In this document: piece by piece, positions 2,604 through 57,434 of the stretch
Layout of the letters: every line of letters starts with the position of its first letter
How positions within the stretch are numbered: the stretch's first letter is position 1
Assembly: GCA_947034885.2 (NCBI GenBank)
Contig: OZ019759.1
Span: 8,620,501 to 8,684,500, forward strand
Origin: Thuidium tamariscinum
Taxonomy: Eukaryota; Streptophyta; Bryopsida; Hypnales; Thuidiaceae
Length of the DNA: 64,000 nt
Direction of reading: 5' to 3'
The notes under the pieces: generated by a model
Told to the model about the DNA's origin: nothing
Seen by the model: only the letters and a program-made list of their open reading frames with translations
Database searches by the model: none
Made by a program: the position numbers and the translations under genes

Positions 2604-3350
2604 CTAAGTCGCTGTAGATTTTGTTGCAGAATCTGAACCTGTAGATGACTCTAAGGACTCTCTACCCTTAGATGCAGACACATCTACAAACTGTAAAACG
2701 TTTAGAGCATAAGTGTCTTTACGGCGTTTTGGTTTAGAACAACCAAAATCCGCAAAGGCACTTGTCAATTGCTCAGTATAAACTAGAAGCTCAAAAGGCT
2801 TCTCTGGACTGATAAGAAGACTACTTTTGCTGAGGATGGCAGTACTTGACATCAATCCACAACTCCTGAAAAAAGCAAGATATATTGTAAGTATTTTATA
2901 ATTCAAATAGTGAAATGATTATTATTCCAATAAAGAACTCAAACATTGCCAACTTACTTACTAGATTTCCCTTTGCGAACAAATTTGCGAGGGACCACGG
3001 GCATGTCTTCGAAATCCTGTGAAACCTCAATCAGCAACGTCGGCGTCGGTGTTGCTACCACAGATGCTGGTTTCTTCTTCATTGGCTTCAGGAGGGCACT
3101 GTAAATGTCTTCGTTCCCTTCTAAAGCCACAATGTGGCGTCCCGTGCCACAGCAAGCTGTAATGCAAGCACCTATAGGTAATAAAATGAAAATGCATTAG
3201 TTTTATAATAGAATTAGTACAAAACAATTGAAGTGTCATATTTGTGAATTAAATACAAACTTATGGATGCAATACAATCCAGTACAATATCTCCTTCGAC
3301 GCTAGTAGCTTCAAGGAGGATAGTAAAAAACCTTGGATCTTTCTCATGTC

Positions 3351-3367
3351 CCCCCCCCCCCCCCCCC
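3351..3367. repeat. C17 homopolymer inside the element A methyltransferase-fold exon
   Basis: An uninterrupted run of about 17 C falls directly after the conserved DYPWRG codons on the minus strand. The frame before it (DYPWRGG) and the frame that contains LLEATSVEGDIVLDCIAS differ, so slippage here probably broke the gene. Run length is also a likely sequencing-error point. Confidence 0.7.
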
Positions 3368-6300
3368 GCCAAGGATAGTCCCCATTCATAGCCATGTCTT
3401 CTGGATGCGTGTAATTCATCAACATGTCATCCTCTGCAACATTAACCCTAGCCTTTACCATCATGTGGGTCCGCTTGAAGAAGAATTTTGAATCCCCTTT
3501 TGAGCCCAAATCCTTCACAAGGAGGGTAACTCCAAACTTCTGTGTCTGAAACATCCACGCTAAATATATATGAGAATGCATTGAAAGAATTGAAGTATTT
3601 TTTTAAAAATAAAATGAAAAGGCATAATACTATGATTGAAATTTACCTTCTTGGTGGTGTCTGATGATGAAGAAAGGTGCATGCGGTTCATCCCCATCCA
3701 ATCCTTTTTCTGCACCAAATCATAAGCTTCACACACTCCAGCAATGTCATCTCTTGACTTCATGCTATAGGGGTGAAAAACTATGATGCATCCATCATCT
3801 TGCAGATGCTTTGTAGCAAACCTGCACGCTGCCTGCAAAGCCTCATCTTCAGGATCTGCATTTCATTTTGGCACATCTGTTGGGGATGAAGACAGACCTG
3901 GTACGGGCAAGTTCTCGAGACAATCAATAAATATGACGTCTACCCCTGCCCGCGCATTCAATACACCTTCAAACATGCGAGGCTTCCTTGATGTCATCTG
4001 CAAATGGAAGTACATTACAAATAAGTTTTTCGAGTCTGATAACATTCATGTCACTTCAAAGAGATAAATGAAAATTCAATACTACAATATAGATGGGTAC
4101 CTTCTCCAAGAAGCTCAAAACAATGTTGTAGGAAGTTGGCTTGATTTCGTCCATGTCATTTGCCAAATCTACAATGGAGATATTGAGGATTAAATCCTCG
4201 GTCTTCACTCCATCATCATCTGTCAAGACCATTGCTTGCGTGACATGACTGATGACTTCTTCGGTGAGTTGAGAAAGAGTGACCTTCTTCTTGGCTCCAC
4301 TCTCCATTTGCGAACTCTGATCCACGATGGAAGATGGTACCATTTGACCTCCCTGTTCCTCCTTCTTCTTCCCCTTCCCCTTGCCCTTCTCTTCCTTCTC
4401 CTTCTCTGCTTTATCCTTCTCTGCCTTCTTGATTGCTCTCTCGGCCTCCCTCTTTTCCTTGTTCTCCAAGTGTACTTGGGCCCGGACTACTTTCTTCCTG
4501 TCGGTTGCATCCCTCTTTATAATGGCCTTCTTCTTTGCATTTTGATAAAGGCCAATAAACTCATCAATCTCCAAGTCCTGCACTCCTTTTCCATCCAAAG
4601 ATCTCCTCAGCTCAACCTCTGAAACTGGAGTAAAATCAAGGGTACAATCCAAGTACCATCCTCCACCACTGAGGTGCGTTGTAGTGAAAGTACGAATCTG
4701 ATGCTGGGTGAACATGCAAGCTGTGGAGTTGCGATCAAGATACCCAGACAAGAACGGGGGAAGGTCGAGTGTTGCAATTGCCTTTTTACCTTCCAACTCA
4801 AATTTGAAATACCTAAAATACAGTTATGGAAGTTCATTAGAGAAAATACTGATGATGGAAATCAAATTTTTGGTTTATAATATAAAGTTTAGAATGTGAT
4901 GGCTACATCAAAACCTATGATAAGAATAAAAGAAAAAATAACCTCAAGGATAGAAAGTAGTCCTCAAAGACTTCAATGGAGTTGATAAATAATCCACACA
5001 GAACTAGAAACTATATTTGAAGTTGATAGGGGTAAGACCTTATTTGCTTAAGGGTCACCCTAAACCCTAAGACATGCCTGTGTACACACGGTGCCTATAA
5101 CTAGTCAACAATTGCTTGTACTTTCTAAATGTGATTTATTTACAAATTAAAGTTTGGAAGTAGTATTTCAAAATCTTGAGCAACATATAGTTTTATGAAG
5201 ACCAAAATTTATGAAAACAAGTTGATGGAACTTATTGGAAGAGAACTCTACGCACCGCAGCAGCGGAACCCTCAAAAGCCATGAAAGAGTCCCCCTTCTT
5301 AAAATAATTGTGCCCCTTGAAATAATTCATGAAGCCATACTCCCATATTTTTTGCCTCCAATCCTCAATGTAGTCTGCCAAATACTGTGGTTTCTCTGGC
5401 ATCTTGTAATCAATGGTGATGTTGTCTTCTTTTACCATTGAATCAAAGTACGAAACAGCTGCATCTTCTATCTGAAAACATGCCAATTTCAATAAATAAA
5501 AAAATTCAGGGTTCTAGGGTCCAATTCAAAATTGTAAATGCAAAAACAAATAGCAACCACCACAAGTAACAAAAATGTGCATATACAAAATTGTTTACTT
5601 ACCCTAGTGTACCACACGCATTTGGCTAGGAATTGGGGAAGAAGAATTTCGGAGACTGGCTTTGGCGGAAGTTTCCTTGCTTCACGAGTAGGAAGAGAGT
5701 AATTCCACCACTTCAAGATTTTAATCTTGTGTGCGGATGTCATGCTACATGTTGCCAGCAATTGCAACTTCTCCAACGTCATTTCGGCAACTTCATTTGT
5801 GCTCCAATGCTTTTCTATCTGCACCAATAGGACATCTTCAAATCCATATCTCACCCAAAAAAAAATATACAATTTCAAAAATCCATAAACAATTGTAGCT
5901 CACCTCCTCTAGGAAACCAGGACCATTCAACGGATGAGCAACGCGAGCAACTTTCCCATTTTCACCATCATATTTTTGGTTTTCTCATGTGTACCAACTC
6001 TCATGGCATGAGCAGCTTCTAGTGCTTTCCGGTCTTCCTCCGGTGTGGCATCCGTATACTTTCTCACGGCTGAATCAGCAGCTTGAGAAATCTCTTGCTA
6101 CATAATCACCCCATTTTACTAGTTAGTCATCCAAAAGTATTTGAAAATTATACAAATACAAACCTCTTAAATTATGGGTTTTAAGATTCATCTTACCCTG
6201 AAAATGAAGGAAGTAAAAACTTCCACAGGTATGCTATACCATTTCTTGGACACTCGGTGTTCCAAACACTTTTTTTTCTCTGTAGGCCTCAACAAATCAG

Positions 6301-8104
6301 CAAATTTCTCAAATGGCAGAAGTCCATACTTCTGCACTTGGTACAAAGTATGTACCAAGTTCGTCTTCACGTGTGAGTCCACAGTCGACCTGCAAGTTAT
6401 TCAATGAATACCAAATTAACATGAGTGAAATTAATATACAAAACTTGTAAACTTGAAGACTTCAAAAATGAATAAATAAAAGGAAGAAAACTCACTTGTT
6501 GATGTCATGCATCACTTGCATAACAAGCTCATTCTGACCCTTTGTGTCTAGTAGAATGCAATCTACAACACAGTGCTTTTTTGGAATCAAAGAAAAACAT
6601 CTCTCTATGACATTCATCCAAACAATGCGGCGATGATTGCCATCGCATATGAAGAACTTCAAGTTCCTAAGGAACTTGAGTTCAGGTTTGGACTTCACAT
6701 GCTAGATAAACTCTTCATTCTTCTCTTTCCAAATGGCGTTCCACTTACTCATCTCAACCTCTATAAACTCTGAGCTTTGCCCCTCTTCATTTGTGATAGA
6801 CACATAAAACACCGCCACTCCATCACGGTACCCACCAACAAACTCATGCTCTAATTGCTTAATATCAGAAGACAAGGTAGGCCTCACCATGGGCATGGCC
6901 ACAAGTCTGCAAAGAAGAATGTGTAAACGAAATAGATCTTCAAGCTTTGTGCGCAGACTGGAGAGGATGTCCACTGAATCTCCTTTCTGAATTCGCCGAA
7001 GTTGGTCCTCCATCAAGCCTTTCAGATCCTCATCTTCAACCAAATCTGTTACCACAATCTCTTCATTTTCCACTCTTTCATATCCTTTGCCTACAATATC
7101 ACATTGTATGCTGTCATCTATGCCTGGCGTCTCTAAAATTCTCTCCTTTTGAGTCCCCTTGATAGGTGAGATATCCATCTGCATGGGCAATCCTTAGTAC
7201 AACCTTTCATATTCACAAAAACAAAGAGTTAAGGTTTAGAGGAATTGTTGTCACTTGAAATTGCAATGAAATATGCTTTAATAATATGGAAAATTGGTAT
7301 GATTGCACAAAAGAAGTTTACTGCAACAATAACCCAAAAAAACCTCTTTGAGGAATTGTGGTGTCAAACACATAAGTAATTTTACTAAGCCATGAAAGAG
7401 ATACTATTCTATAATCTCTATGTCATCATCCTCATCAGAATCTGAGCTGAGGATGATGACTTCATCTAAAGAAAACCTATCAGTGTGAATATTCTCATGC
7501 AATTCCACAAATGGAGGACATGAGCTTGCATTTGAGAGCTCAATAGCGGAGGAATACTCCGTCTCCGAGCTCTCAAATGAGAACCATGGCCCGGAACCCC
7601 TATTCCAACTTAGCTTGTCTCCCTCAAAATCATTAACTACGCGCTCTGCAGCATCCATAATGTCTGCAAAACTCACCAAGTTCCCCTCGTCATCGCTGGA
7701 GTCACTTGGAATGGGCATGCCGGGCTGAGGCCACGTCTTGGGCACAAATGGTCCTCCAATCTCCAAACCTTGAGAGTTTTGAACCATAGGTGCTTGTTTT
7801 CCAAATGAGGCAAGCTTTTGGCGCTTAGAAGTGCGTCGACCACTCTGCAAGAATAAGATCATTTTATTTAGTAACAATTATAAAGGTTTAAAATGGGTTT
7901 AGTTTAATACTAACCAATATTACATAAATTCACTTTGTCTCTCAACGCATTAACTCAATGAACCAAGACCAGGAGAGCAAATGTGAACTCTACATATTTC
8001 TCCAAAATGCTTTCTCTTATCAGTCACCCAACACATGAAAATCATTTGATGATTCCATACTTATCAAAGAGAGAATAAAAAAGAGTCATAACAAATTGAT
8101 TTGA

Positions 8105-9760: not shown

Positions 9761-11848
9761 CTTCATCGCGAACTCATGTCCATAGGGAGAACACGGCCTC
9801 TTCGGCATAATGTCCCCCAAATAACCACATTCAAGACTGTAATTGAAAGTGTCGACATTGTACCCAACATACATCAGAAATTTGACTTGGCGGGTGATGT
9901 GTGGCGAACCTGGTTTGCCAAGGCAGTGTCGACATTGGAAAAATCTCCCAAAGTGTTCGCACTACGGACCTCCTTGGCGCGAGATCGAGTGCTCCTCGTC
10001 ATGGGGATCGAGTGCTCGTGCGTTTGCACAAGCAAGGAGGCTATGCATTCATGAAAATGAAAGAGAAGATGGACTACACGAGCATTTCGGGAACTGGAAT
10101 CCTGCATCAAGAAAGAACTGAGTCATTCAGAGGAGCTTTGTTGAAATCAGAGAGTCATTTCTGGCCATTCGTGCCCGCCATCGCGCCAAGCAGGTAATCG
10201 CGTCGAATCAGGCAAAATTCCTCGATTCAGCGGTAGATGAGGACAAAACACAGTATCGAAATCCGGGAGGGATCTTCTCAGCCACTTTACAGAGGCGATC
10301 TTCGCAAATTAAGGTCAACCTACCTCTCTGCATGGTGGCAAGGCACATGCTCCAAAGTTGTCAACGTGACAAAGTTGTCAGCGTGGGATTGGGGGACTGG
10401 TTCTAGCGGTCAGTGGATGTATTGGGACTACTACTGGTCACAGTTTGGAATCACAGAGAAGGTGAAGTGGTGAACTAGGGAACTGGGTCCTTGTGAGACG
10501 TCAACGTTCTTCTCACGGTGGCTTCGCCACAGGTCCTTCAATTCCTTAGAGCACCTACTAAGATCTCTACTAAAGTAGCACTGTATTCATCTATGGAAGT
10601 TGAATAGCCATGCCATCCCTCAAAAAAGGCCCACTCTCTCTTTTTTCCTTTCTAAGAGTTGTCTTTAATATTTCTAAATGCTATAACTCTTCATAAGTTT
10701 TGAGATACTTCTTCATAACCACTTTGTCCTGTGCATTCAACTATTTCAAATGAGAGCTAATAGATAGGTATCAGTGGAGTGAGGTGGTGAATCAAAGTAA
10801 ACTTACATTTTGCGATTCCTGTGCTCTTGTTACCTCCTCGTTTTGATGAAATTCCAATGGTTGCTCTGGTACATGCTCAAAGTTCTCACTTCCATCACCT
10901 CCTAAATGGGCTCCTCCTCCACCATCAATCTAAGAGATCGCCTGAACTCAACATTCTCTCCTTCGCTTGTTCTGGACACAATTTTCTTGGCACGAGACAT
11001 TCTAGCTCTCTTCAAGACTCTCCAAGAGGAGAAAAGAAAAGAACTATGTTTTCTCTTACTCTTTCTCTGCTGTGGAGTAACAATGACTACGTTCAAATCG
11101 TCTACAAGCATGGGCTGATGCAAGTAATAACAAAACTAATCGCACTTCAAAATACAAAAATAGTCTACAGAGAGCACAAAAGGGAGTCCATCTTCTTAGA
11201 AGACCTATATATAGTTCTTCAGAACCTTCTTTGGAGTCATTGATGCATGTCATGTGACGTGACGGCGCTGCCATTTTCAGATTCTTAAACGAGGACATTG
11301 CATTGCTTGATGTGGTATGGCGCCGCCTTTGTCAGAAGCCGCCGAGATTTTGAGGATCAATGACATAAATGCAAGCCGTTTGGAGGAGCTGTTGTTGTAA
11401 GTTATTGTTCAAATTTGATAAATGCTGGCAGTAAATCCGCGGAAAATATTTGAAAGTACTGGATACTTATTTGAATATGGGGTTGTACATTTGTATGTAA
11501 AGATTTCACGGCGCTAGAGAAACTCTAATACTTATGAACGTAATAAACACTTTTGTCCACCTTACATTAAAATACTTTGTATAAACGATCACTTAAACTC
11601 TGGTGCAGGACAAAACGGCTAAGTAGAATGTTCATATCTATACGTTTTAAAAATAAATAATAAAAAAAATTACAAACTGCCGTCATTTCTTTAAAATGCT
11701 AAAATAGACTGCACCTTTAATGATTGATCCATGTACCTTGTAATGAATAATTAAATGAAGAGACTATATTAGAAATCCGACTCAAAATCCTAATGTTTTT
11801 AGAGCCATTTCTTCTACTCACGGTTGTGTAATCTCTATTCTCAAAGAC
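9761..11848. other. Element A spacer upstream of the transposase
   Basis: No gene is assigned. A minus-strand stretch at about 10905-11115 reads basic and hydrophilic (QQRKSKRKHSSFL, RVLKRARMSRAKKIVSRTSE) and could be a nuclear-localising 5' exon of the ParB/methyltransferase-fold gene, but no splice partner is proven. The last 500 bp before 11849 are AT-rich, as expected for the transposase promoter. Confidence 0.35.
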
Positions 11849-12569
11849 ATGGCTAGCATTCGTGTAGATGGCCACAAAGTTCCTGTAGTGTTTCCATTAG
11901 ATGAATCAGGACATGCTACTGTATTTTCTCATTTGCTTCATGCTCGATTTAAATTTGTGGAGTCATCTATCGACGTTGAAGAAGACCAATACTCTGAGTT
12001 CGGTGAATTGCAAGAGTTCATTCCCATGGTGAGGTCTATCTCAAATGAAGCCCACTACTGGTATCTAGGTGTCGGAAATTTCAGAGCCTACGGTCTCCCA
12101 TTATCTATGATTAGTTTGTCTCCTAAAATAGGAAGTCATTAGTCTGCTAATTCAACAGTGAACACACCTTTCATATCTGAGAGTGGTACTCGTAGTCCTC
12201 TCAAAAATAGCTGCCTACTCGTTTGTAGAAGAGAAATTCCTACTGTTGTGAAGGTAGAAAAACTAGACACTATTGTAGAATTGTCTAGTGAATCAGAAGG
12301 TGAGTCCCCGACCTTATCCCTTCACATGAAATCTTCCGCAGTCCACACGGTTTCTAATGAGCCCGAACACGTAGCTTCTATATGGAACACCCCACCTCAT
12401 AGTTCCACACAGTCTAAATTCTCAGATCCTACCGTGGACCTTAGCCTTGCAAACAAAGAAAGTATAGTGGAATGCTTGAAGAAACTTTCTGGTCTCCATC
12501 GTTCCAGGAATGAACTGGCTACAATAGATTTGAACACCATGAAGCATCACCAAGTAGAGATCCTGCCCC
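11849..12569 (+). pseudogene. Element A MULE transposase, 5' part, interrupted by element B
   Basis: The frame begins ATG at 11849 (MASIRVDGHKVPVVFPLDES). It aligns with the start of the element B transposase (VVVRPTDDGVPVYFPVAEDG), including the shared pattern PV-FP-DE-G, and later the acidic SSESEGESPTLS segment (SSDSEGQSPTLP in B). A TAG at 12140-12142 splits it. It stops at VEILP, where element B inserted; joining to 30989 gives ILPPSYNRDAFFELP, matching LPVLPSNFNGDVIFELP in B. The 3' part is at 30989-34391. Confidence 0.85.
12561..12569. repeat. Target-site duplication of element B, left copy
   Basis: TCCTGCCCC lies immediately before element B inside the element A transposase gene. The right copy at 30980-30988 is TCTTGCCCC, one transition apart. 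A 9-bp duplication is typical for MULEs. Confidence 0.85.
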
Positions 12570-12785
12570 AACGTTGCTAGGAAGGGAGCGGTGAGTGGGG
12601 AGTGGGGAGTGGGGAGCAGGGATTAGTGAGCGGGGATGAAGAATAATGAAAGAAAAATTGAAAAAATATTTAGAATTCTTAAGAAAATTGCAAAGAAGAA
12701 GACAAAAAAGTGGATGAATTTTTGTAAGAAGTTAGATGAAATGACACAAAAGTAGATGAAAAAAGTGGATCATTCATGAAAGCAA
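12570..12785 (+). repeat. Left terminal inverted repeat of element B
   Basis: It starts AACGTTGCTAGGAAGGGAGC, then G-rich heptamer-like units (GGGGAGT repeated, GGGGAGC), then GATGAAGAATAATGAAAG and an A-rich part with GTGGATGA units. It is matched in reverse by 30733-30979 with a few substitutions and one short insertion. Confidence 0.92.
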
Positions 12786-15379
12786 ATGAAAGAAGATTTT
12801 CACTCTACGAATGACTGTACACAAAGGATAGGATGAAAATAAGCTCCAATTATATCATAAGGAAATTTTTTACATTGCGGGATGAGGCCTCTTTGAAAAG
12901 GACAATTTTTATCCCGTACTTCCATCCATATTGACATCATGATGTTTAGGAAGGTACATGTTGTTTACTATGGTAAATAATGAGGCATTAGGTACTTCTT
13001 GTAATTCAAATATTAAGGACATTGAGGGATTCATTGAATTGAAGAAGGACAAAATTGGTGCAATTAGAAGACGAATGGCTCATGTGTTTTTATTACTATT
13101 TGAGACTTTAAAAAAAAATAAGATCATTGTTAATACATGCTCATGATGTTTGCACTATGAAATGCCTCTTATTAGACACTAGAACAATAGGTACTTTTGG
13201 TCATTCAAGTCCTTTGTACTAGAAGTGAATTTTTTACATTGACAAGTTCAGAAGTACTTGATGAGATTCACACAAGGTAGTGACACATATTTTGTATTTA
13301 GGCTATCAACTCTAGCCTCCAATAAATAGCTTTGCATGTGAATTTGTAAGGGCCTCCTTCAGGCTTAAAAATTTATCTTATGACATAATCGTACTGAACT
13401 TTGTATTTTTGATACCTTACAAATATTTGTATATAGATGTTGAAGATCCTATAACCGTGGAAGTACGTAGAAGTCTTAGAAGGCCGGGAATGTAGGGGAC
13501 GTATTTTCAATTTGTGGATTCCTCTAATTCCAATCACGCAAAAAAACACTTTTTCATTTAGTGTACTTCTTGTACACTACATTGAGGCATGTTATGAAAT
13601 TTGAGTCCCAACTTTGCGAAGGATAAATTTTATTTGTAGTTCATTTTAAATACGACCACCGACAGCTTCGTTGTCCTTTACCGCTTACATATGCTTGATT
13701 AAACCTTAGGGTATAGAGAAGGGCGTTTAGGATAGCCAAATCAATATGGTTAATATTACTTGTTCTGAAAGTGCAAGCACAGTAATGAACAACTGTTCGT
13801 CATTTCGGGACGTCCTTAATTTAAGATACATTTTAAATGAAGTAGGACTTCCACTTTGCATACAACTCATTTAATGTTCTAGTAGTATTAGGGTGTACTT
13901 GTTAACTAAGCTGAACATTGTATATGGGAAGGGACACGAGCTAGTCGTCCCCAAGCTCCACTAGAATATATCGAAATTGCCTACAAAACATGAAATTCAG
14001 AGTTGGCGTGTAACATTGTGCTAAAGAAGTCTACTAAAGAACAAGTCACACTGTGGAGTGAGTAAGAAGTTTCATCAATTTCCATCAAAGTGGTTGAAAG
14101 CAAAAGGTTCGCAAATGTGGGTCAGCCTGAACCTCCATCCCCTAGATCCAAAGGGAAACCCTAAACTTTGAAGAGCCCAAACATGTTCTACTTCCATAGC
14201 CATGCACCTCTCACTAGAGAAGACTCCATATAAGCCGAAGCCCTAACTGTAATGTCAAACTCAACCCACTGAGTAATTGTCAGCATAATTATGTGGACTT
14301 CTCAATACATGAGCACGTACATCCCCAATAACCTCTTGCACGCTAGAGTCATCATCATAAGCTATAGAAGCCACAGAACGCCTAAGAATCCATTAAAATT
14401 AATATAAAATTGCAAGTGGATGCTAGACATCATAGAATGTGGATTCATTCTAAGTGGTAGCTCGATGATGACGTTTGTCCAACTATGAATCGAGTGGCCT
14501 GAAATTTGTGGCAGTGACTCTAGAATTGGATTCTTAAATTAATATCAGGATGCAAGGAATGTTGCAGGTCTTGTGAGAGGTTTAGGGTCCTTTCTCCTAC
14601 GCCATTCCTATGCTTTGGTTTTAAAATCAGTGTGTGTCGATGCCCTAGTGCGGGTTCTACGATGCATGAACTCTGACCCTCTCAGTGCGTATGGGTCGGT
14701 TTTGGGCGTCTCTAATTCCAAATTTGGATATTCAATTGATTACAATACGACACAAATGTCGTAGATGGGGTTGAGGGTCGAAGGCCCTCCCTTTCACGCA
14801 CTTATTCTCTTGGTCTTAGGATTGAGATGTGTATGATGTGACAATTTGCACCGTATGGCAAAAACCACCTTCCTGGACGTCAATGCCAACAAGGGTCCTG
14901 CGCTACTGTGTCCAAGATTTTATCCTATATCGATAGCAGTCTGAAATGAAAGCCACAGTAGGAGTGTCAGGGTTAGGGGGCCCTCCTTGCACCCCATTTT
15001 TCAGGTGTGGGAATGGATCGTGGGTTTACATGGTGTTAATGTGTTAGTCCCTCAATGTATAGGCTTCCCCCCTAAGGCTGCTCGGTGCATGGAAGGTGCT
15101 TGGGGAGGCCAAGGCCAAGCACCAATGTTTCTAATTGTTGATCGCATATCGTAACCTATGAGATATGAATGCCACACATGGATGTGCAGGAGTAAGAGGC
15201 ACACTCCCTCACCCCATTCATTTAAAATGAAATGTGGTGTCAATGGCGCGAGGATGTGTATCGCGAAATGAATTGACTGCCTTTTCCAAGGAAAGAGGGT
15301 CTCCTTCAGGCGTCCAGGTCAAGCGCCAGTTAGCCCAATCTGAACGTGATTCACATTCACATCGACAGAAATGTGAGTT
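12786..15379. other. Element B left spacer
   Basis: About 2.6 kb of moderately AT-rich DNA with many stops in all frames. No conserved protein, RNA gene or clear repeat unit was recognised. From about 14570 onwards sequence such as GTGTGTCGATGCCCTAGTGC and CGTATGGGTCGG hints at very decayed satellite relatives. Confidence 0.45.
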
Positions 15380-44700: not shown

Positions 44701-44714
44701 TCCCGCTATGTGAC

Positions 44715-45070: not shown

Positions 45071-46990
45071 GTTTTTCTGGGTTTGTAGGCTTCTACAAGT
45101 AAATTCTCTAGTTCTCAATTCTCAAATCATTGTCGTAAAATGTGCCCTTTCTAATGATTGTAGATAAATTTTCTACCATCAAATGCAGTGACTACATTGT
45201 CGCTAATCCTAATTACTATGTTCATATTTGTTGTACTCCAATCTTTATTTTCATTGTTTACTCAAGGCACAGAAACTTTACTCCGTATCAGATTTGGATG
45301 TACATCATTCTCATTATTACATTGAAATACTAAAAATTGTATTACTACTTAAACTAATTTTATTTGATATAATGAGGGCTTCTGGACTTTTATCAATTAA
45401 TAGAAGTAGCAATTGAAATCAATGCCTTGAATGAGTCACATCTTCAGATTATGAACCAAATCAAATTAATGCACTCTATATAAGAGTAAAACTGTGCACT
45501 TATATTATATAAAAATACTTCATGTGTTCCTCCTAAGTTTTTTTAAACAATAAAATTATATCAATTTATTTTTTTCATAATTACTGTGTTATGCTATAAC
45601 ATTTTAGATGAAATTATTAATTTTTTATTTCTTTTTTATTCTACCTATCATCTTCAATATACAAAAATCTAATAATATATAGGAATAAAATTGTCCAATT
45701 ATACAGTAGTGCACTGAAGGTATTCCTCCTTAAATGAAAAAATTATGTCAAATTTATTATTTTCATTACTACTAGCAGGTGGTGCTTACTATGCTATGCA
45801 GTCATGATTAGAATTTAGAAAATAGATAATTATCATGAACGCTCATATTTCACAGAAACACTAAATTAATCATAAAAGTGCAAAGAAGTGTTAATCCAAG
45901 AAAACCAATCATGGATTTGCTACCTCTATTATATCTTCTTGTGGATCTTCTTTAATATCACCTTCATTGCAACAACTACATTATATCTTCTTGTGATTCC
46001 TATTAGTGCATTTTTACCCTCTTTGTAAGAAGTGATATTACAAAAGTGATTGCAAATTCATACTCCTTTTCCGTAATATCACATTGTATGACAATAAGAT
46101 TTTCATGTATTCATGATTGAAAACATTCTTACAAAATATTAAAAATATATTATTTTAAACACTTATTGAAATCAATATCATGCATTCTATTCAAATATAT
46201 AATTTTTTTATTAATATGTGATAGTTACAGTGAATGCATAGTATACCAAACACCAGCCCCTAGTATTAAAGATAGCATTTGTGACATTAGAGAGGGAGTT
46301 ATGATTTTAGTAGTATGATGGTCTTATACAAAAACATTTCAGATGAAAATAATTATTTCTGAATTCTTTTTCATTCCATTATTATAAATATCCAAAAATC
46401 TAACAAATTAATTCTAAAACTTCTGATCAAAACTCTTCAATTAAAATAGACTTAGCATTTACTAACTTCTACAAAAGAATTGACTGAAGAACCTCATAGA
46501 AGAGGCCCATTCCAACTTCTACCTATTTTTTTTGTCTTTTTTGCACGTGAAGTTTTCACCATGAGGCACTTCCAAAAGTTTTAGGGAAATGGCAGGGTTG
46601 AGGTTTTTTCCCAAATGAAAACGGATTTGGGCATGGATACAATTCAAAATTCAAAATTTCTCATTATAGTATTTTATGTATTGAATTTCATGTATTTCTC
46701 ATTATTCAATACAATATTCTTTACATTCAAGTGAATATGATGATTGTAAACAATATTCAAAAAATTTTAAAGCACACATCAATCCCTTCGTTCTTCTATT
46801 TCAATAGATTTTGGATGATTACAAAATACAAAATGAAATATAACAACATTAATTTGTAAACTTATCTATGACCTAAGACTTGTTGTAGGACATTCTAACT
46901 GTTAAAAAAAATTTGACTTCTACTATTATGAATTCCATGACATTAATGGGTTCTTATTCATACATAAATAAAAAGGTACTATTGCCTGAT
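45071..46990. other. Element C AT-rich spacer
   Basis: Very AT-rich with no conserved coding sequence. Towards 46860-46990 it grades into decayed units of the 176-bp satellite (phrases like TGTAGGACATTCTAAC). Confidence 0.5.
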
Positions 46991-49745
46991 TTTCTTCAAA
47001 ATAAAATTCGTCTTATAATCAACATGAAACATCAATAGGTCTTCAATTTTGAATATTCTAGGACACTCCTACTTCTAACAAAAATAAATAAATTTTGATT
47101 AATGTGCATTTCATGACAAATATACAATGTTCATTTGAACCCAAAATTTTTCACTAGAATCACCATTTATATGAAAATTAGGATTGATGAACAAACAATC
47201 ATTGTATTCAAATTAGTATTCAAATAAGAGTGACCTAGGACTTTACAACTTTTTCATATTTTTATTGAGTTCATTTCACATGTTTTTCATGACATTTGAG
47301 GGATTTGGGTTTTTTCACAAGAAAATGGTAGTGTGGTTCATTTTTCTTTGCGAAATAGAAATTGGGCAATTGGAAGACATGCTATTGAAATTAGTGTTTG
47401 AAATGGACTGTCCTAGGACTTTACAACTTCTCCATATTTTTATTGACTTCATGTGACGTGGATTTCATAACCTTTGAAGGAATTAGGTTTTTTCGAAAAA
47501 AATGGCAGTGCGGGCCAATTTCCTTTTGCAATTAGAGTTAACGCAATTAGAGGTTATGTTATTGAAATTAGTGTTTGAAAATAGTTGTCCTCGGACTTTA
47601 GAACTTCTCTATATTTTGTTTGACTTCATTTGACGTGGACTTCATGACATTGGAGGGATTTGGTTTTTTCACAAAAAATAGTAGTGCGGTCCTTTTTACT
47701 TTTGCAAATCAAAATTGGGCAATTAGAGGACATGTTATTCAAATTAGTATTTGAAATTGAATGTCCTAGGTTTTCACAACTTTCCCATATTTTTCTTCAC
47801 TTCTTTTGATGTGTATTTCATGACATTTGAGGGATTTATGTTTTTTGACAAAAAATGGCAGTGCCGGCCATTTTTATTTTGCATATACAAATTGGGCAAT
47901 TAGAGGACATGCTATTGAAATTGGTGTTTGAAAATGGTTATCCTAGGAGTTTACAAATTCCCCATTTTTTTTCCCACTATATTGGACGTGGATTTCATGA
48001 CATTTGAGGGGAATTAGGTTTTTCCACCCAAATGGCAGTGCAGTCCATTTTTCTTTGCCAAATAGAATTTGTTCAATTAGAGGACATGCTATTCAAATCA
48101 GTGTTCAAAATGTAGTATCCTAGGAATTTACAACTTTTTCATACTTTTTTTCACTTCATTTGACGTGGATTTCATGACATTTGAGGGATTTTTTTTTTTT
48201 TTTTAAAAAGGGGAGTGCAGGCCATTTTTCTTTGCAAATAGAAATTGGGCAATTGGAGGACATGGTAATCAAATTAGTGTTTGAAAATGTTTGTCCTAGG
48301 ACTTTACAACTTTTCAATAGTTTTTTTGGCTTCAATTGACATGGAATTCATGAGATTTGTGGAATTTTGGTACGTAGACAAAGAATGGCTAGAAGGTCCA
48401 TTTTTATTCTCCAAATTGGATTTATGTAATTCGATGACATGATACTGAAATTAGTACTTCAAAATGAGTGTCCTAGGACTTTGCAACTTCTACATATTTT
48501 TTCGGGCTTCATTTGACGTGGAATTTTTGACATTGGAGGGATTTTTGTGGGAAGAGAAGAAATGGCAGTGTGGTCCATTTCCTCTTTCCAAATGCAATTT
48601 AGGCAATTAGACGAGAGGATCTTCAAATTAGTGTTTGAAAATGAGTTTCTTAGGACTTCACAACTTTTCCATCTTTTTTTTGGCTTCAACTGACATGGAA
48701 TTCATGACATTTGTGGAATTTATATTTTTTGAAAGGAAATGGCTGTGTAGTCGATTTTTTTATTTTGAGTTGGAATTAGTGGATTTGAAGACATGATATT
48801 CAAATTAGTGATAAAAAATGAATTCATGTCTTAGAGGGTCTCATTTTTTACATAATTTCTTTGGCTTGATTTGACGTGGAGTTTATGACATACGAGGAGT
48901 TTTGGTTCATAGAGAATAAATGACAACGTGGTCCATGTTTTTTTTCTAAATCAAAATTCGTTAATTTAAAATCATGATATTAAAATTAGTGTTACAAAAA
49001 GAGTTTATTAGGACTTTTCAACTTTCACCTATTTTTTTGGCTTCAATTGATATAAAACACATGACATTTGAGGGATTTTGGTTGAAAGACAAAAATCGCA
49101 TTGTAGTCCACGTTTTTTATCCTACATTGAAATTAGGCAATTAGACGACATGATCTAGAAATTAGTGTTTGAAAATGAGTGTGCTAGGACTTCTCAACTT
49201 TTACATATTTTTGGGCTTCATTTGATGTGGGATTCATGTCATTAAAGGGATTTTCGTTGGTAGAGAAAAAAGGGTAGTGTGGTCCATTTTCTCTTTTCTA
49301 ATTAAATTTAGGCAATTAAAGGATATGATTTTGAAAGTACTGTTTGAAAATGAGTGTTCTAGGACTTTTCATCTTTCACATTTTTTTGGGGCTTGAAATG
49401 ACATGGAATTGAAGACATTAGAGGGATTTTGGTTGAGAAAGAAAAAATGGTAGTGTAGTGTACATTTTTTTTCCTAAATTGAAATTAGGCAATTAGACGA
49501 CACGATCTTCAAATTAGTGTTTGAAAATGAGTGTCTTAGGACTTTTTGACTTTTGCACATGTTTTTTGGCTTCATTTGACTGGAATCCATGACATTAAAA
49601 GAATTTTTAGTGGTAGAGAAAGAATGGCAGTGTGCTCTATTTTCTGTTGTCAAATTAAATTTAGGCAATTACAGGACATGATATTGAAATTAGTATTAAA
49701 AATGAGTGTTACAGGACTTTTAACTTTCACATACTTTTTTTGAAT
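46990..49745. repeat. Tandem satellite array inside element C (about 176-bp unit)
   Basis: About 14-15 diverged units. Recurring phrases are GACATGATATTGAAATTAGT, GTTTGAAAATGAGTGTCCTA, GGACTTTACAACTTTT, TTTGACGTGGAATTCATGAC and GGCAGTGTGGTCCATTTT. The first phrase recurs at about 47380, 47554, 47730, 47904, 48083, 48260, 48436, 48612, 48788, 48964, 49147, 49320, 49498 and 49674, giving a period near 176 bp. Units differ by many substitutions, so the array is old. Open frames in it are not genes. Confidence 0.92.
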
Positions 49746-50530
49746 AGTTAAGTTAATTAACCTACATGAGTACATGTGCAATATACTTGATGGCTTTGAG
49801 GATTTAAGTTTTAAGAAGTAGTAATTCTAAATGATTTCGAGGTTAAATAGGATATAATTGGATATTTTTGTAATGTTCACTCCTATTCTAGCCTTATTTC
49901 CCGGTTGTGTGGGATCCAATTGCACAATATTAAATTTTCTTTTTTTTTTGGCACCAAGGAAAAGTAATTTTGTTTTGTCTAAAAAAATTCAATTTCCTTA
50001 AAAATAACAATGAAGTCAACGAATTTGAAATAAAAAGGATTAGAGTATAAAGAAAAAGTTATTTTAAATTCAAGAGACATATGAGTGTTTAAAAATTATG
50101 TAAAACTTATATTTAGATGGAAAAATTAGAAAAAGGTTTACAAACTTTTTTTTCCTAGAAAAACTATATGTTACGACTCAAATGAAGAGGCTTTCTTATG
50201 TTTTTGACTAGGATCACCCAATTGACAAAAAAAAAGATCTTTTCTACTATTTCCGTTACTAAAATCATGATGGTATAAATTTTTTTATTGTGACACATCT
50301 TTAAGGTGCCTAATTTACCATATTTATATCAATTCTATTTTTAATTAAAGTAATTTAAATTTATTTTTTATTATTTTCTTTTTCTATATTCAAAATGCCC
50401 TTTTATTTTTAACCATGTGGGCACTTTTCAAAAAAGTAAAAATGAAGGAGTGGTATCCCCTATAGTGCATGGTTATAGCCGTTAAGCGGTTTTAGGATTT
50501 GTAGAGGAGCTATGTAAATGTATGCTTTGG
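49746..50530. other. Element C AT-rich spacer
   Basis: Right of the satellite, AT-rich, no coding signal or repeat unit recognised. Confidence 0.5.
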
Positions 50531-50579
50531 AGTAGGTTTGGCTTCAAGTTTGGTTTCAGGTTCGGGTAATCGGACCTCT

Positions 50580-51090
50580 GCTTCGGATGTGTTGTGGCGG
50601 CTCGGGGTAGGTTCGGGGTAGGGTTGAGTGCAAGCTCGGTGGGAGGTCCGGTGCGTCGTCACCTCCGACGAATGCGCACCATTTCTTGTGAGCGACTGTG
50701 TTTCCGATTCCTATGTTGTTTCTTGCTGTGTGTGTGGTGCATTGTTGCTGTTGATCACAGGTTGTGTGTGTTCTCACGTCTACATGCTGACGAGTTGGGG
50801 CAGTTTGTTGTTTTCCCTCGTGAAGCGGGGCAACGTTTCCCTCGCGAGGCGGGGCAAATTTTTTTGGTATATGTACAAGAGTTGGAATCGGGTGTTGAGA
50901 GTTTTTTTTATTTCCATCTGTGTGTTGTTGGTTGGGGTGTATCAGTGTATGGTGCATTGTTGTTTTTGATGTGAGGTTGTGGGTGTTGTGAGGTGATGCA
51001 AGGTGGGGCAGTTCGGTGTTTTCCCTCGTGAAGCGGGACAGTGTTTCCCTCACGAGGTGGGGCAGTTCGGTGTAGTATATGTTTAGGAGC
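50580..51090. repeat. Two-copy repeat with CCTCG dyads
   Basis: A GC-richer segment contains CCCTCGTGAAGCGGGGCA then CCCTCGCGAGGCGGGGCA near 50817-50856, and a diverged second copy near 51020-51063, about 205 bp apart. CCTCGCGAGG is a perfect 10-bp palindrome sharing its CCTCG half with the main element C palindrome. Open frames on both strands here show no recognised family. Confidence 0.55.
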
Positions 51091-51800
51091 TTTGAGCGGG
51101 TGGTGTGAGTGTTTTCATTTCCATCTCTGAGCGGGTGATTCTATTTCGCTTTTGTTGGGAGTTCTGTGAAGTCTTTCCCTCGCGATCCGTTGAAGTGCGC
51201 TGGAGTTTCCGTTCTTTGCGGCATTGGAGTCCATCGCGGAGGTGGTGGCGTGTTAGGGTTTCGTTGCGGAGAGGTTGCGTGTCGTGGAGCATTCGAATTG
51301 TTCTTGCTTCCAATTTGTACAGGTGAATTGGTTTTTTTTTTAAAGTTCCCTCGTTGTTGTAGAATCTGAGTTGCTGGAGTGCACAAGTGAGCCACGTTAC
51401 TGCAGACAGTTCTTGAATTGCGTTTTTTGTCTGCGTGGTGATAGTGCCTGGTTTTGGAAGTTACTGTGGAATCTGGAGATGTGTAGGGTTTAGGGCTTTG
51501 GAGTCCATCAAGCCTTCTTTGAATTGAATCCATTGGCAATTCCTTTGGACTATTCAGGATCTTCTGTACCGTGCTCTTGAGGATTCTGTGAATTCTGTCT
51601 TTCAATTCAGAGGTTATGTACAGTAGTGGTAAACGCAGGTTAGCTTCCTGAACCTGGCTGATGCCATTTTCCTTAGTTTTCGAGCACAAAACTATTGAAA
51701 ATTAGGGTTTAGGCTCGGGTTTAGGGTTTAGTGAAGGGTTTAGGGAAACAGTGCCAACTAAAATTTTACGATATCACGCTTAAAAGTATGCCATTACAAT
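51091..51800. other. Element C spacer before palindrome cluster 2
   Basis: Mixed composition with several unsupported open frames. Near 51690-51745 there is another short degenerate TTTAGGG-type tract. Confidence 0.35.
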
Positions 51801-52827
51801 TATCCTCGACCCAACAATAATATTGGAGGCGTGCATCTATAACTAAATTGTGAAATTAGGGTTTAGAGTTAAAGAAATAGTGCATCCTCGACCCGATGAT
51901 AAAAGCCCAGCTGAATTCAATAGTAATTCCTTATGTAACGTAGTTATCATCGGGTCGACGATACTATCCGAACTCGGTAATTGGAAATGTGTCAACGTAT
52001 AACAATAAATCTTCCACTTAAGGTCCAAATATGACAACAGAAATCAGCACTGCCTCCAAGAAAGTAGTTACGTTAAATTGTTTAACGTTTACCACGAATA
52101 AATGTAGTTATCATTGATCCAATGATACGAGGACCTTCCCGTATAGGTGATTCATCAGAGTCCTACAGACCTTGCAAGTAAGAGTTGTGCTTGCTGAAAA
52201 ACAAAAAGATATGAAGAAACTTTGCTTCAGAGGCGTTTGAATCTGAATTCCATAGTTGACAACAGAATTAAATGCTATTTGGAAAAATGTGGTGAATCTT
52301 TCAGTAGTTAGGAACAAATGCTTCAGCAAAACTTCGTTACAATCGCAGTATTAGGTGACGAGTTCAGGTAGAGTCTGGTATTGTAGTGGTTATTCTCGAT
52401 ACGACGATAGCTTCCTACCTTGTGAAGCTTACCGCAACAAGCCATAGAATTGAAGAATAACCCTTACAGAAATAATGAAGAGCTCCTCTGAAAGAAATAA
52501 AAAAAATTAATTACGACTGAATTAGAAGTATAATAATGGAATTCGATGAGTTATTTTGTAATAGGTCTCGCTTATCCTCGACACGACGATACCACAGTAG
52601 TGGTAGAGTAAACATTTAGAAGTGATCACCTAAAAGTAGTGCTGTGACTAAGTTATCATTGAATAATGATATGTAACATAAAAGAAAATCATTAGGTTTC
52701 GTTTAAGAAATGAAAGTAAATTCTCTGTACAGAAACATGCACTTTCATGCCTTGCAACTTCATCGGTTTGAAGTACGTTACACGAATTCTCATAAGAGTA
52801 TGAATCCTTATCCTCGTGACGATGATA
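51801..52827. promoter_or_regulatory. Palindrome cluster upstream of the element C ParB/methyltransferase-fold gene
   Basis: Eight related palindromes at about 51801, 51882, 51944, 52108, 52390, 52572, 52653 and 52808. They range from good (TTATCATCGGGTCGACGATA at 51944) to degenerate (TTATCATTGAATAATGATA at 52653). They end about 50 bp before the proposed ATG at 52879. This mirrors the cluster upstream of the DUF7869-type gene and suggests shared control, possibly autoregulation. Confidence 0.68.
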
Positions 52828-54146
52828 TCAATGTTACCCCTAACGATGAATCTGCTCGAAATTTTGCAGACTCTCAAAATGGAGAGAGTTGATGACTACA
52901 ACTACTCACTGACTAGCCCTCATCTCTAGCCATTTGTGAACCCCGTGGAGGACGAGCCCTTCATCACAAAAATGCAAGAAACATATGGCACCTTGTGGGA
53001 GTTTAAGGACCATATTCAAACATGGTGTTTCGGTGTAAACCGGTTCAGGAACTACGTGTACCTGCGGTATCGTGTGCAAGGAACAACCACGTACATGCCA
53101 TGGAATATAAAAGAGAAAGTGACTCTCATTGAAGAACATCACGGAGACTACGTCTTAATTGTACTTCAAGAGGTGGACGACGCTGGCGTCGCTACAGCAC
53201 ACAATCACTCTATCGTATTGAACGTCAATTCGTACCATGGGAAGTTCGATATAGACAATCTGATAACCTTTCTCGAAAGATCAGCAATGGAGCCTCTGAA
53301 TGCTCAGTTTTTGAGAGCAGGTTATGTTCCGTGGAAACACAGCACCGGCAAGTCCAACGCAATTCGATTGCGCCTTATTTTCCAAACGTTGGATCGCTAC
53401 GCCATGGAACACATCGAGAAGCAACTTGCTATAGGGCGTCCCTCTGACCAGAGACAACGTCCCGTAAACGCCAGTCCAAACAGAAGATCTTCGACTAGAG
53501 TAGGGACAGGGAGTAGGTCGTCTAAACCTGATCAGGTAAGATCAGAGCCGAAAAAGAGAGCCCCTCCTCCGAATGAAGGAGAGTCAAGCAGGAAGAGGAA
53601 GAAGAGTCTTTCAACTACACAAGCTGGTGTCGGCAGTTCCGCTTCTGCGTTGACTACCGTGTCAACCGTGCCAAAGGCAACTGAATCTGACGTTCCAGAT
53701 TTTAAGAAGTTTGACGAGATTCAGAAAAAGTTTTGGGCTGAACACAGGAAGTGTTTTTTGTTTGATGAAGAAACTTTCAAAATTGACATCAAGCAATGTG
53801 ATCTGGCTAGTCCCGAGTATGTGATTCGTACTCTTCAGAGAGATATTGTGGAGGCTGTGAAGAAAGAGCTCATTCAGCTCATAGACGTAAAGCAGCGGCA
53901 AAAATTTTGCCTTACTCCAATTGGTTTGGATAAAAATCTTTTGCCAAGGAAGCCAAAAAAGTGGGATGAGATAAAAAATGGTCGCTTCATGATTATTAAT
54001 GGACAGCACAACATAACAGCTTCTCAAGAACTTCATATCAGTAGGTGTGGGGAAGCTCACAAGGTAGAACTGAAGACTTGGGATGCGTACATTGTGTGGT
54101 CTTTGGACGAAATAACGAAGCCATTTTTTATCTTAAACAATACAAG

Positions 54147-54340
54147 GTGCGTATCCTTGAGTCGATGATAGCTGAACTTATAACTTAGCTTAACTTGTTT
54201 GTCTTTCCGTAGTTATGAAAGAGAAGAAACATTGTTATCATTTCGTGGGGATGTTAGAGAATGGCTTGCTTATCATCGAATCAACGATATAACGTCACTA
54301 TCCACAATTGATTGACTAGTAGTTCTGATGAATTGTTGTG
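54147..54340 (+). other. Intron with two palindromes
   Basis: A GT donor follows LNNTR and TTGTGCAG precedes KFTDAVIQRF. Inside are TATCCTTGAGTCGATGATA (54152-54170) and TTATCATCGAATCAACGATA (54270-54289). Confidence 0.75.
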
Positions 54341-55671
54341 CAGAAATTCACGGATGCCGTCATACAGAGGTTTCAGAATATAAACCCAGAACGAGATGGT
54401 GCATCCATCAGTGGAACTACGGATCTCAAGAATGAGATCCAGATAATTACCCTGCCCGACGAATTATGGGCGTTTTGGGAGAGCTTCTTGACGAAGCACT
54501 CTGTAGGCGATTTGATTGACCCCTTGACTTTGGAACCGTACAAAGAGAACAAGCTCTTCAAAATGAAGAGCATGTCGTTGAAGAGGGAGTTTTTCAAGGA
54601 CTTCGGGCTTTTTACGGACAAAGACTTTGGGGTAAAAGCCCAACACCTCCTCGATTTGACGCCAGGACGGATTGCGAGGTATCCGAAGGTCTCCGTGTCT
54701 TCAACAAAGGTTCTCATTCTGGACAACATGACCCACAAGGAGTGGGTTGAGCAAAGGAAGCGCAAGAAAGTTGTGCTGTAGGACTTGATGGCCATCAACC
54801 CAAACTTGAAGTTTGTCTCAAGTGGTGGTGAGGAGGTTTTAAATGAGACATGGAAGTCGTGGAAGGCCAGGCACAATTTCACCTTAGCCTCTTGGGATTT
54901 CTTGTTGATGCATCCAAGTCCGGATTACTTCAAAAGACGCTTAAGGAATGATGCGTGGTTGAAGCGCGCAAAGGATCTGGAGAAACAGTTTCCGGAGGTT
55001 TTGTACATGTTTACGCGGTTCATGAAGTTGAAGTACCAGCTTCCTGCTCCGTCCGGAGGTGTGCAAATGAGGGGCGTTGATTACGCGAAGATGGCACTTG
55101 TAACAAGCTCCAATTACCGGTACGTGAATCGAGAGGTGAACTTCGCCCTCGTCGATTTCAGGGCAGCTCCAAGACAAAAGCCCACAGACATAAGCAGCGC
55201 CATCGATCGTTTCCAGGATTTCTTATGGGCGAATCTCTCGCCAAAAATGACTGAAGCCAATGTGTGGCTTTTCATTCTGCGGGGATCAGAAGACGTCCAA
55301 GTAGCAAAGGCGTTTGGCGTTCTTCATCTCAGTGATTACAAAAGCGTCTTGTCCGTGTACCGCCCAACAAGAGTTGAGCTGTTGGACAATGTGACTTGTT
55401 GAGGGACGGCCCCTAACGTGCCTCTCCTATTCTTCTTCAAAAAGAATAACGAGTTTGCAATGGCGAGTCGAACGTTTTTGCAATCGAAGTATCAAACCGC
55501 CGAGTGGAATACGTATTATTACAAGTGGGCAAAGAACACGGAAGCAAAGTGGAGGCTGAATCCCAGCGAACTCCGTATGGAGTTCTATTTAGACATCCTT
55601 CACGCTTTTGGGAAGCCGGATGAGAATGTCCTGGGTGTTTACGCAAGCACCAAGTTTATACTTGTAGCCAA

Positions 55672-55872
55672 GGTGAGATTTGGCACTTCTTGGAAGTTAT
55701 CCTCGAGTCGAGGATAACTCCCTTCTATGTGGTTTTGCATTACATAATTATTTGATGTTTATGATTAGTTTTGTAAAGTCTAGTATCATCGACCCGAGGA
55801 TACCTACTGAGGTGGTCATGACTTCTAGTTTCATGGTAGTAGTTTTCTCATAATCCTTATCTCGCTTGTGCA
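55672..55872 (+). other. Intron with two palindromes, interrupting methyltransferase motif I
   Basis: Donor GTGAGA follows ILVAK; acceptor TTGTGCAG precedes MLGTFYYGF. It contains TATCCTCGAGTCGAGGATAA (55699-55718) and TATCATCGACCCGAGGATAC (55784-55803). In A and B an intron also splits the motif I region within a few codons of this place. Confidence 0.75.
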
Positions 55873-57017
55873 GATGCTTGGGACGTTTTACTACGGTTTT
55901 GTCGAGAGGAGTGAGGTGAAGTCATACCAGTTCATTTCTTCTTCAGCAAAGAAGATGGATAACAGGGATTTTATGATGGAGAATTCGCCATACTCATTCG
56001 ATTACATGAAACCTCCATCACGTGGTCTGATAGTAGTTCAATCGAACTCACCTTCGTCGCCGCCCGTGAGCTTCGTCTCACCGACTACAGAAACTCCATC
56101 GGTGCCTCGGGAAAGAGACAATGTCGGCCCGCAAAAGACAGCAGACTTGGGTCTGGAGGGCATCGACGAATATGGGAAGAATACGTTCCAGATGTATCTC
56201 TGGACGTCAGTACCTCCCGTTCCCAAGGAGGCTGCACAATCCACACCTGCACAGTCTGCACTGGCAACGAATGATCCGCAAGACATGGAGATTGTCGAAA
56301 TTCGGGATCATACACCGGCTCGCTCACTTGCTCCTCGTGTTGAACATACCAAGTTTGAGGCAGACGAGGGTATGGAGACGGACTCCGAATTTGAGTAACA
56401 ACAAGCGAAGCGCTGAACAAAACATCGGGAGGATGAAAGACTCCCTAGGTTTTAGAGGTGAAGAAGACTCCTTCATGAAGGAGCCTTCAAAAGAAGGGGA
56501 CAAAGTTTTCGACGAAGAGGACATCGTCATGCAAGAGAGGAGGCTTCCCATCGGTGAGCTGGATGCAGAAGGGGGGCCTCTCTTCTATGATTTTGGGGAT
56601 GATGACAACCCCATGGACCATCCCCACGATTCGGATCATGACGACAACAACCACGATGCTCCTCCAAAGCAGAAGGAATTGAAACCCTTAGTCCTCCTTG
56701 ACAAGAGAACGATCAAAGTGGAAAAGGACTACTAGGCAGAGCAGGAGGAGGTGAGAAAAAAGCGGATCGAGAGGACAGCAGAGAAGAAAGCGAAGGACAA
56801 GCTGTTGGAGGAAATGAACGCCAAACTCATCGCTATCACGCAAGAGTCCGTGCAGTCGAAGGAGAAGATGTCTGAGTTGGAGCTCAAGTTGCAAAGGCTC
56901 TCTCAACTGGTAGAGAGTCAGTTTGGTCCAACGGCTATCCAGTCGCAGCTTCCCTCGCCTGCCCCACCTGCCGTCCCAGTTCCTCCTCTAGTGCAGCAAC
57001 TGGTTTCTGGACCTCCG

Positions 57018-57038
57018 TATCCTCGACTCGAGGATACT
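57018..57038. repeat. Palindrome inside coding sequence (1)
   Basis: TATCCTCGACTCGAGGATA, with one more matching base on each side, lies in the 3' coding part of the ParB/methyltransferase-fold gene and is read as YPRLEDT. Confidence 0.85.
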
Positions 57039-57184
57039 TCCCAAGTCGTTTCCTTAGTCGACACTGAAATTGTCGAATGCACTCCTGCATCCCAGCTCAG
57101 GGCAAGGATGGCATCTCCGCAGGTGGCTGCATTTGAGGTGACAGTACCTCAACTGCGAGGACCTGCTGAAGAACAAGCTAGAGA

Positions 57185-57206
57185 TTATCGTCGACTCGAC
57201 GATATC
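57185..57206. repeat. Palindrome inside coding sequence (2)
   Basis: TTATCGTCGACTCGACGATA, a variant with GTCGA half-sites, is read as DYRRLDDI in the same frame as the copy at 57018. Confidence 0.82.
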
Positions 57207-57434
57207 GCTGAAGACGCAGCGAAGCAGCCAACGACCTCAGTATCAGCACATGGTGCTGATACGTCTCACGAGGTGCAGGAGCCCGTGCAGACTTCTTCTC
57301 CTGTAGAAGAGGAGGACAGATTGGACTACGGAGAGAACGAGGTTGACGAGAACGTCCACGAGGAGGTGGAAGTCCAAGCCCTTGCTCCGGAATCTGGAGA
57401 GCAAGGTCCACCGAAACTGGCAGAAGTTGAGTAG

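Follow-up and report, generated by a model that had tools for sequence, protein, structure and literature searches.

In the moss Thuidium tamariscinum, a 64,000-nucleotide stretch of contig OZ019759.1 (assembly GCA_947034885.2, positions 8,620,501 to 8,684,500), referred to here as the window, carries three transposons, A, B, and C, each with an accessory gene that encodes a ParB-like segment. The window comes from a genome of 363 Mb in 19 contigs. Our preferred reading, to which we assign a probability of about 0.45, is that the proteins of A/B and of C are self-recognition proteins, that is, accessory proteins that would bind the palindromes of their own element, use a worn second domain as a module, and act in anti-silencing and/or transposase assembly. 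This reading is favored by palindromes specific to elements B and C, by the presence of the same gene, with conserved introns, in A, B, and a third family, D, by low rates of protein change in the B family and between C subfamilies, by the methylase kinship of the A/B second domain with its altered motif IV, and by the divergent linkage to a transposase in both B and C elements.

We infer both the binding of these proteins to the palindromes and its effect on the element. Each element would encode its own sequence-specific accessory protein, whose ParB-like (A/B) or NGQH-type (C) domain would recognize palindromes in the promoter, repeat, and intron DNA of that element, as ParB does parS. The second domain, of methylase fold in A/B and of FCP1-like fold in C and without the standard catalytic residues, would be a binding or regulatory module or platform. 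The protein might then coat the element and shield the promoter of the divergent transposase from host silencing so that it stays active, the role that VANC has for VANDAL elements, and/or it might aid transposase assembly on the element ends. The features involved are as follows (window coordinates).

2604..7178, minus strand: gene A, the same 10-exon gene as B, broken; exons 5' of the modeled part exist
11759..12569, plus strand: transposase assigned to A, N-terminal part, cut by element B (34% over 116 amino acids against the B transposase, E 1.6e-11)
12570..30979: element B, 18.4 kb, apparently Mutator-like, within the A transposase gene; ends accurate to 1 to 2 bases
15341..17005: 236-bp tandem array on the downstream side of gene B; it shares the palindrome of the other B array and is inverted relative to that array
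17243..21878, minus strand: gene B, 10 exons, broken; ParB-like exon at 21878-21148, methylase-like domain at about 18973-17584
18512..18872: insert in exon 7 of gene B, from comparison with genome copies
22549..24858: 235-bp tandem array between gene B and the transposase, carrying the palindrome ATCGACACA-N2/4/6-TGTGTCGAT
26247..30277, plus strand: SWIM-like transposase open reading frames (ORFs) in element B, oriented divergently to gene B and resembling the A transposase
30980..34391, plus strand: transposase assigned to A, remainder, with a SWIM-like finger (47.5% over 501 amino acids against the B transposase; SWIM E 0.06, below the cut-off)
38029..60463: element C, 22.4 kb, with 29-bp terminal inverted repeats (26 of 29 match) and the 4-bp duplication GAAG
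38665..41490, minus strand: DUF7869 gene of element C, presumed transposase (PF25273, E 1.5e-44 over 38665-40644)
41702..42321: cluster of six TATCNTCGANTCGANGATA palindromes upstream of the DUF7869 gene
46490..49743: 177-bp tandem array within element C, without palindromes
51801..59832: 15 other TATCNTCGANTCGANGATA palindromes, in the 5' region, introns, and exons of the C gene
52879..54146, plus strand: C gene exon 1, ParB-like NGQH segment; 151 bp missing in the window copy
54344..55672, plus strand: C gene exon 2, methylase-like by eye only
55874..59930, plus strand: C gene 3' part, exon limits approximate; FCP1/NIF-like end, predicted from relatives, from about 57950

Element-specific palindromes

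The 19-bp palindrome TATCNTCGANTCGANGATA, with up to three mismatches allowed, has 21 matches in the window, where shuffled sequences lead one to expect 0.19, and all 21 sites lie within element C. Six are upstream of the DUF7869 gene and the remaining 15 in and around the C gene; the tandem array of the element contains none. Elsewhere in the genome, a second copy of C has 13 sites within 10.8 kb, each of six C-gene loci has 5 or 6, and a copy that is 77% identical (L040) retains in place all five of the sites that it covers. In the 200 kb of stretches L009 to L028, no site was found.

Element B has another palindrome, ATCGACACA-N2/4/6-TGTGTCGAT, of 20 to 24 bp. Its 14 sites in the window are all in the two tandem arrays of element B, with none elsewhere, and it is present in all 14 of the B-family stretches (2 to 15 sites each) and in none of 6 others. 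A carries two distinct palindromes, near positions 8132 and 8575. By eye, three hairpin-like inverted repeats can be seen in the 5' introns of A (8100-8960), two of them with a center like CCATCGGATCCGATGG within 3 mismatches. For D, translation and self-matches reveal a tandem array of ~126-bp units just upstream of the gene (L025, 3000-3500), in the same place as the array of B.

Element C and its two genes

The NGQH segment of C matches the ParB-like family phrog_723 in all three members scanned (E 0.018 to 0.12). Otherwise, C looks like a gene different from A/B: comparison of the C and A/B/D profiles with hhalign found no similarity (probability 0.1), no methylase family was matched in Pfam or PHROG, no chain was matched in a PDB profile search, and a relative of C had no match in a phage tblastn search. 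The second domain of C may nevertheless be a methylase so degraded that profiles miss it, in which case all three genes would carry the same kind of fusion. Exon 2 ends, by eye, in a motif-I-like stretch, part of a motif X/I-like segment (PSELRMEFYL...VYAGAKFMLAA) on which the best hhalign segment also falls, and against the uniformly negative profile searches this leaves the worn-methylase alternative with somewhat less than an even chance.

Among the 18 relatives of C (13 from Ceratodon, 1 from Physcomitrium, and 4 others; the named ones come from Ceratodon purpureus and Physcomitrium patens), 8 contain PF03031 (FCP1/NIF), whose gathering score of 21.8 is exceeded in P0004 (46.4 bits) and P0015 (50.2 bits); the window C fragment alone reaches 13.8 bits. 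Judging from the architecture of these relatives, the C gene would extend beyond 57434 into an FCP1/NIF-like domain within 57858-59930. The catalytic motif of FCP1/NIF phosphatases, DxDx(T/V), is absent from this domain in window C, P0004, and P0015, which have DLNG. With DLNG in the window, in Ceratodon, and in Physcomitrium, the domain is perhaps a pseudophosphatase.

The window copy of C lacks 151 bp of coding sequence (at 54108-54112) that is found in all seven aligned copies; the gap deletes a conserved stretch after the NGQH segment and shifts the frame. Loss of an intron was rejected as its explanation, since the copies show these 151 bp to be coding. Between subfamilies (L035 versus L040), the ratio of nonsynonymous to synonymous substitution rates (dN/dS) of the C gene is 0.08, 0.12, and 0.26 in exons 1, 2, and 3, with dS near 1 to 1.8; close pairs give 0.15 to 0.96 with few changes. 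Exons 1 and 2 are both open in two of the seven copies (L035 and L036), each of which has a stop in exon 3. As for the distribution of the gene, a single contig, C11 (17.5 Mb, <5% of the genome), holds 15 of 40 C-gene loci picked from 68 matches, and 9 of the 13 Ceratodon relatives bear UG or VG tags, read as sex chromosomes; contig C11 may be a sex chromosome.

The limits of element C come from genome copies: among the 60 matches listed, 30 stop at window positions 60463-60469, and the right end, AAGGCCTTATTGGTTAAATTGAGACAAAA, is repeated in inverted form at 38029, 26 of its 29 bases matching. GAAG borders both ends in the one insertion read at both ends. A start at 46489 with a 3-bp duplication was considered and rejected, as this edge comes from a displacement inside the tandem array of the copy used for comparison, and the matching terminal repeat is at 38029. 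Sola1-type transposons make a 4-bp target duplication, and the 4-bp duplication together with DUF7869 suggests that element C is Sola1-like. The DUF7869 protein, encoded on the minus strand within the element, is presumably its transposase, differing from that of A/B. A Tnp2 (CACTA) fragment at 36575-37951 was rejected for this role because it lies outside element C. This fragment (minus strand; PF02992, E 1.5e-33 over 37007-37951) ends just left of element C; C seems to have inserted next to or within a CACTA element. The right flank (60464-62000) is repeated DNA, with two other places in the genome matching the flank only, from the insertion point onward.

We scored 40 genome copies of the DUF7869 locus, that of the window included. 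In 18 of them the C gene or its FCP1 part is found in divergent orientation 7.8 to 14 kb away; the C-gene list alone (the 40 loci picked from 68 matches) links 15 of the 40, where random placement gives a mean of 0.2 and a maximum of 2 for that list. The other 22 copies have neither the C gene nor its FCP1 part among the matches listed. This linkage, like the tandem arrays and palindromes inside the elements and beside the transposase, would also suit a protein that is just a subunit of the transposition complex, binding the repeats to unite the element ends and having no anti-silencing role; TnpA of CACTA and mudrB-type functions are the models for such a co-factor. We regard it as rather unlikely, because the palindromes of C are found on the promoter side of the DUF7869 gene and in the 5' region and introns of the C gene, not at the element ends.

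Element B and the transposase of A

The ends of element B are the same in three insertions, the one in the window and two other copies, and target duplications of ~9 bp (length good to about 1 base) flank all three of the insertions read at both ends; in the window they are TCCTGCCCC (12561-12569) and TCTTGCCCC (30980-30988), with one mismatch. The element contains gene B together with the divergent transposase ORFs. The ~9-bp duplications and the SWIM-like finger point to a Mutator-like element, even though among six ORFs scanned the Pfam MULE transposase domain had no match up to E 0.1 and one ORF had the SWIM match at E 0.06. By its insertion, element B divides a related transposase gene into halves 18 kb apart (11759-12569 and 30980-34391). 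We take this gene to belong to A because of its place and divergent orientation; element ends of A were looked for and not found, so that the linkage of A to a transposase is one of adjacency only. The genes of B and C, and by adjacency that of A, accordingly lie within a DNA transposon and are encoded on the other strand from its transposase. The view in the earlier note, three transposons with two different transposases, agrees with the SWIM-like transposases of A/B and the DUF7869 gene of C, apart from the missing ends of A.

The gene shared by A, B, and D

Gene A (7178-2604) and gene B (21878-17243), both on the minus strand, have 10 exons each at matching places, as the shared exon order noticed earlier had implied, and are 41% identical across ~1,100 aligned residues; in gene A, the donor GT is absent at one exon junction. 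Exon 1 of both encodes KFFxxDGNHRRI. Near the C terminus, a methylase-type motif IV (VDVIFIDCLEN in A, VDLIFVDVPEG in B) precedes motif I (GDIVLDCIAS in A, RDVVVDFTASTG in B), which is interrupted by an intron in both genes. No relative was found in a scan of 142 stretches of viral contigs, and a protein search with A/B yielded none among 8000 scored candidates.

In profile scans, methylase families of PHROG match this gene with a best E of 1.7e-6, two of the families doing so in all three members scanned; window B matches phrog_3008 at E 2.4e-4. PDB profile matches over the whole sequence are to DpnA (E 0.0034) and CcrM (E 0.0043), the latter covering motif IV through motif I. The N6_N4_Mtase family PF01555 is matched in two of the three members (best E 4.8e-5, copy L010), window A giving no match; window B is at E 4.9e-4 and 20.6 bits, and neither it nor D (17.5 bits) nor P0019, a relative from Ceratodon (18.3 bits), reaches the gathering score of 26.7 bits. 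The best matches of P0019 are phage methylases (E 0.01 to 0.05). Derivation of the second domain of A/B from an N6/N4 methylase is thereby supported.

The catalytic motif IV of N6/N4 methylases has the consensus (D/N/S)PP(Y/F/W). At this position there is no DPPY in any of the members: the sequences are VVDVPEG in D, FVDVPEG in B, FIDCLEN in A, and IADAPEG in the Ceratodon relative. Motif I, with the consensus DPFxGSG, is altered to DxxASTG, and the loss of the catalytic motif is common to families and species. Since motif IV is not DPPY in any member, the domain probably no longer methylates, or it uses other residues. As an alternative, the protein of A/B could still be active as an N4/N6 DNA methylase and mark the element that encodes it, a role suggested for the algal proteins. 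This accords with the kinship to N6/N4 methylases and with the order of motifs IV and I, and the Ectocarpus paper (PMC12477816) puts forward, for a similar protein, that it binds and modifies the DNA of its own element. With DPPY replaced by DVPE (D and B), DCLE (A), and DAPE (Ceratodon), and motif I changed as well, in a pattern shared between families and species, we find active self-methylation improbable, and the suggestion in the earlier note that the domain marks DNA is not borne out.

Both window copies are broken by premature stops, gene A additionally by a frameshift and a homopolymer disturbance. Exon 7 of gene B is also interrupted by a 361-bp insert with an 8-bp direct repeat (18512-18872), probably a miniature inverted-repeat transposable element, which is missing in all 12 copies that cover this exon cleanly (2 others cover it uncleanly). 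The idea that the stops common to A and B mark a gene dead at birth was rejected, other copies being open at those sites. A genome search with exon 1 of B gave at least 41 matches at no fewer than ~40 places; those listed comprise 15 at 93 to 100% (B itself included) and 26 at 65 to 79%. We took 20 genome stretches with such matches for comparison and aligned 15 B-family rows, window B plus 14 copies, of which L015 and L021 were left out as partial or divergent. The remaining 13 rows (78 pairs) have a median dN/dS of 0.32 (range, 0.19 to 0.69) and show purifying selection on the B-family gene copies. L010 is open across all ten exons, L020 is free of stops with ~175 additional bases in exon 5, and the other 11 rows contain stops. 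The third family, D (L025 to L028, ~98% alike), has its introns as in A/B, shows 53% identity with B and 40% with A, and includes a copy, L027, that is open in each exon read.

That these are captured passenger genes of no use to the element, a case for which one could cite the broken window copies, the 22 DUF7869 copies without a listed C gene, and the frequency of host gene pieces in Mutator-like elements (PMC6446971), is very improbable in the face of the dN/dS values of the B family and C, the open copies of B and D and open exons 1 and 2 of C, and the same divergent arrangement in two types of transposon.

Assessment and relation to known systems

Several observations weigh against the self-recognition reading. 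The ParB-type matches are below threshold: for C they stop at E 0.018, and among A/B/D only the D member gave any (phrog_1033 at E 0.087, DUF1015 at E 0.034, and DndB at E 2.3, all on the DGNHR segment), with none of these three families matched by A or B in the profile scans. From the DGNHR motif and these sub-threshold matches, the ParB assignment of A/B/D is reasonable, not proved. The DpnA match is weak when single stretches are used (E about 1 and 15). No convincing palindrome of this sort was found in D, and the dN/dS of D exon 1 is uninformative, with 0 to few changes. A general count of inverted repeats fails to separate the 5' regions from controls: it equals the shuffle maximum in the 5' regions of A and D, is unremarkable in the 5' region and the tandem array of C, and is raised in coding controls (7 versus a shuffle maximum of 3 for A, 4 versus 3 for B). 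Because of the latter, only the named motifs of B and C carry weight. Finally, a promoter-proximal palindrome could be a site for a host factor or for the transposase.

The earlier note held that A, B, and C carry the same ParB-methyltransferase gene, recurrent on unrelated transposons and with an intron in or next to motif I. For A and B this stands, down to the split motif I and, in the profile searches that it proposed, the PHROG, DpnA, CcrM, and below-cut-off PF01555 matches. For C, the motif-I-like stretch is seen by eye only and no methylase profile matches, so that what recurs is the linkage to transposons of two kinds and not, as far as shown, one fusion; a ParB-like segment in all three is backed by DGNHRR and NGQH, with sub-threshold profile matches throughout. 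Its suggestion that the elements recognize their own DNA is the best idea available, given where the palindromes of B and C are located. A wider version of the self-recognition reading, which we hold more tentatively, is that two unrelated plant transposon superfamilies each evolved an element-private system resembling ParB-parS, in which a ParB-like protein joined to an inactive enzyme domain (of methylase or FCP1 fold) would read its own palindrome, present in some 10 to 20 repeats, load there, and keep the element open, in convergence with VANC-VANDAL.

Bacterial ParB-parS systems have a DGxHR/GQH-type motif and clustered short palindromes on their own replicon. The likeness to the elements described here is in these two traits, with homology below threshold; the bacterial CTPase, helix-turn-helix, and role in partition are no part of the comparison. 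VANC, which we take to be a DUF1985-type protein, binds a motif in tandem repeats. In VANC/VANDAL of Arabidopsis, as here, a Mutator-like element has an extra gene, and the tandem repeats of our elements contain candidate recognition motifs; this likeness is an analogy. The Mutator survey PMC6446971 mentions VANC anti-silencing of VANDAL and uses neither the word ParB nor the word methyltransferase.

The closest counterpart is Sola1-1_Ec32 of Ectocarpus (PMC12477816), a Sola1 element of 21.5 kb that encodes, opposite its transposase, a protein of 1104 amino acids with ParB-like and N4/N6 methylase regions; the paper cites cases from transposons of green and red algae (Iyer et al. 2011; Petroll et al. 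2025). A/B share with it the putative ParB-like segment and the N6/N4-type methylase domain, the size of ~1,100 amino acids, the strand opposite the transposase, and the giant (~20 kb) DNA transposon. They differ in the moss host, the apparently Mutator-like elements, and a motif IV that is not DPPY; element-specific palindromes are described here for B and C, and C looks like a separate protein, one with relatives that terminate in an FCP1-like domain. The TET/JBP genes that fungal DNA transposons carry (PMC12730594) are likewise accessory genes related to DNA modification, of another enzyme class and host kingdom. A limited literature search found no ParB-methylase accessory gene on a land-plant transposon. 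Such genes on algal transposons are already known, and moss elements with altered motifs and palindromes of their own are new.

Escape from silencing is best tested where both the recognition protein and its DNA sites are known, and VANC is the plant case known to us. The elements described here offer candidate pairs of a protein and its sites, the clearest being C with its 19-bp palindrome and B with its palindrome of 20 to 24 bp, and the mosses Physcomitrium and Ceratodon have relatives of the C gene. The loss of catalytic residues that these proteins have in common would also recast the role proposed for such fusions as one of reading DNA and not of marking it.

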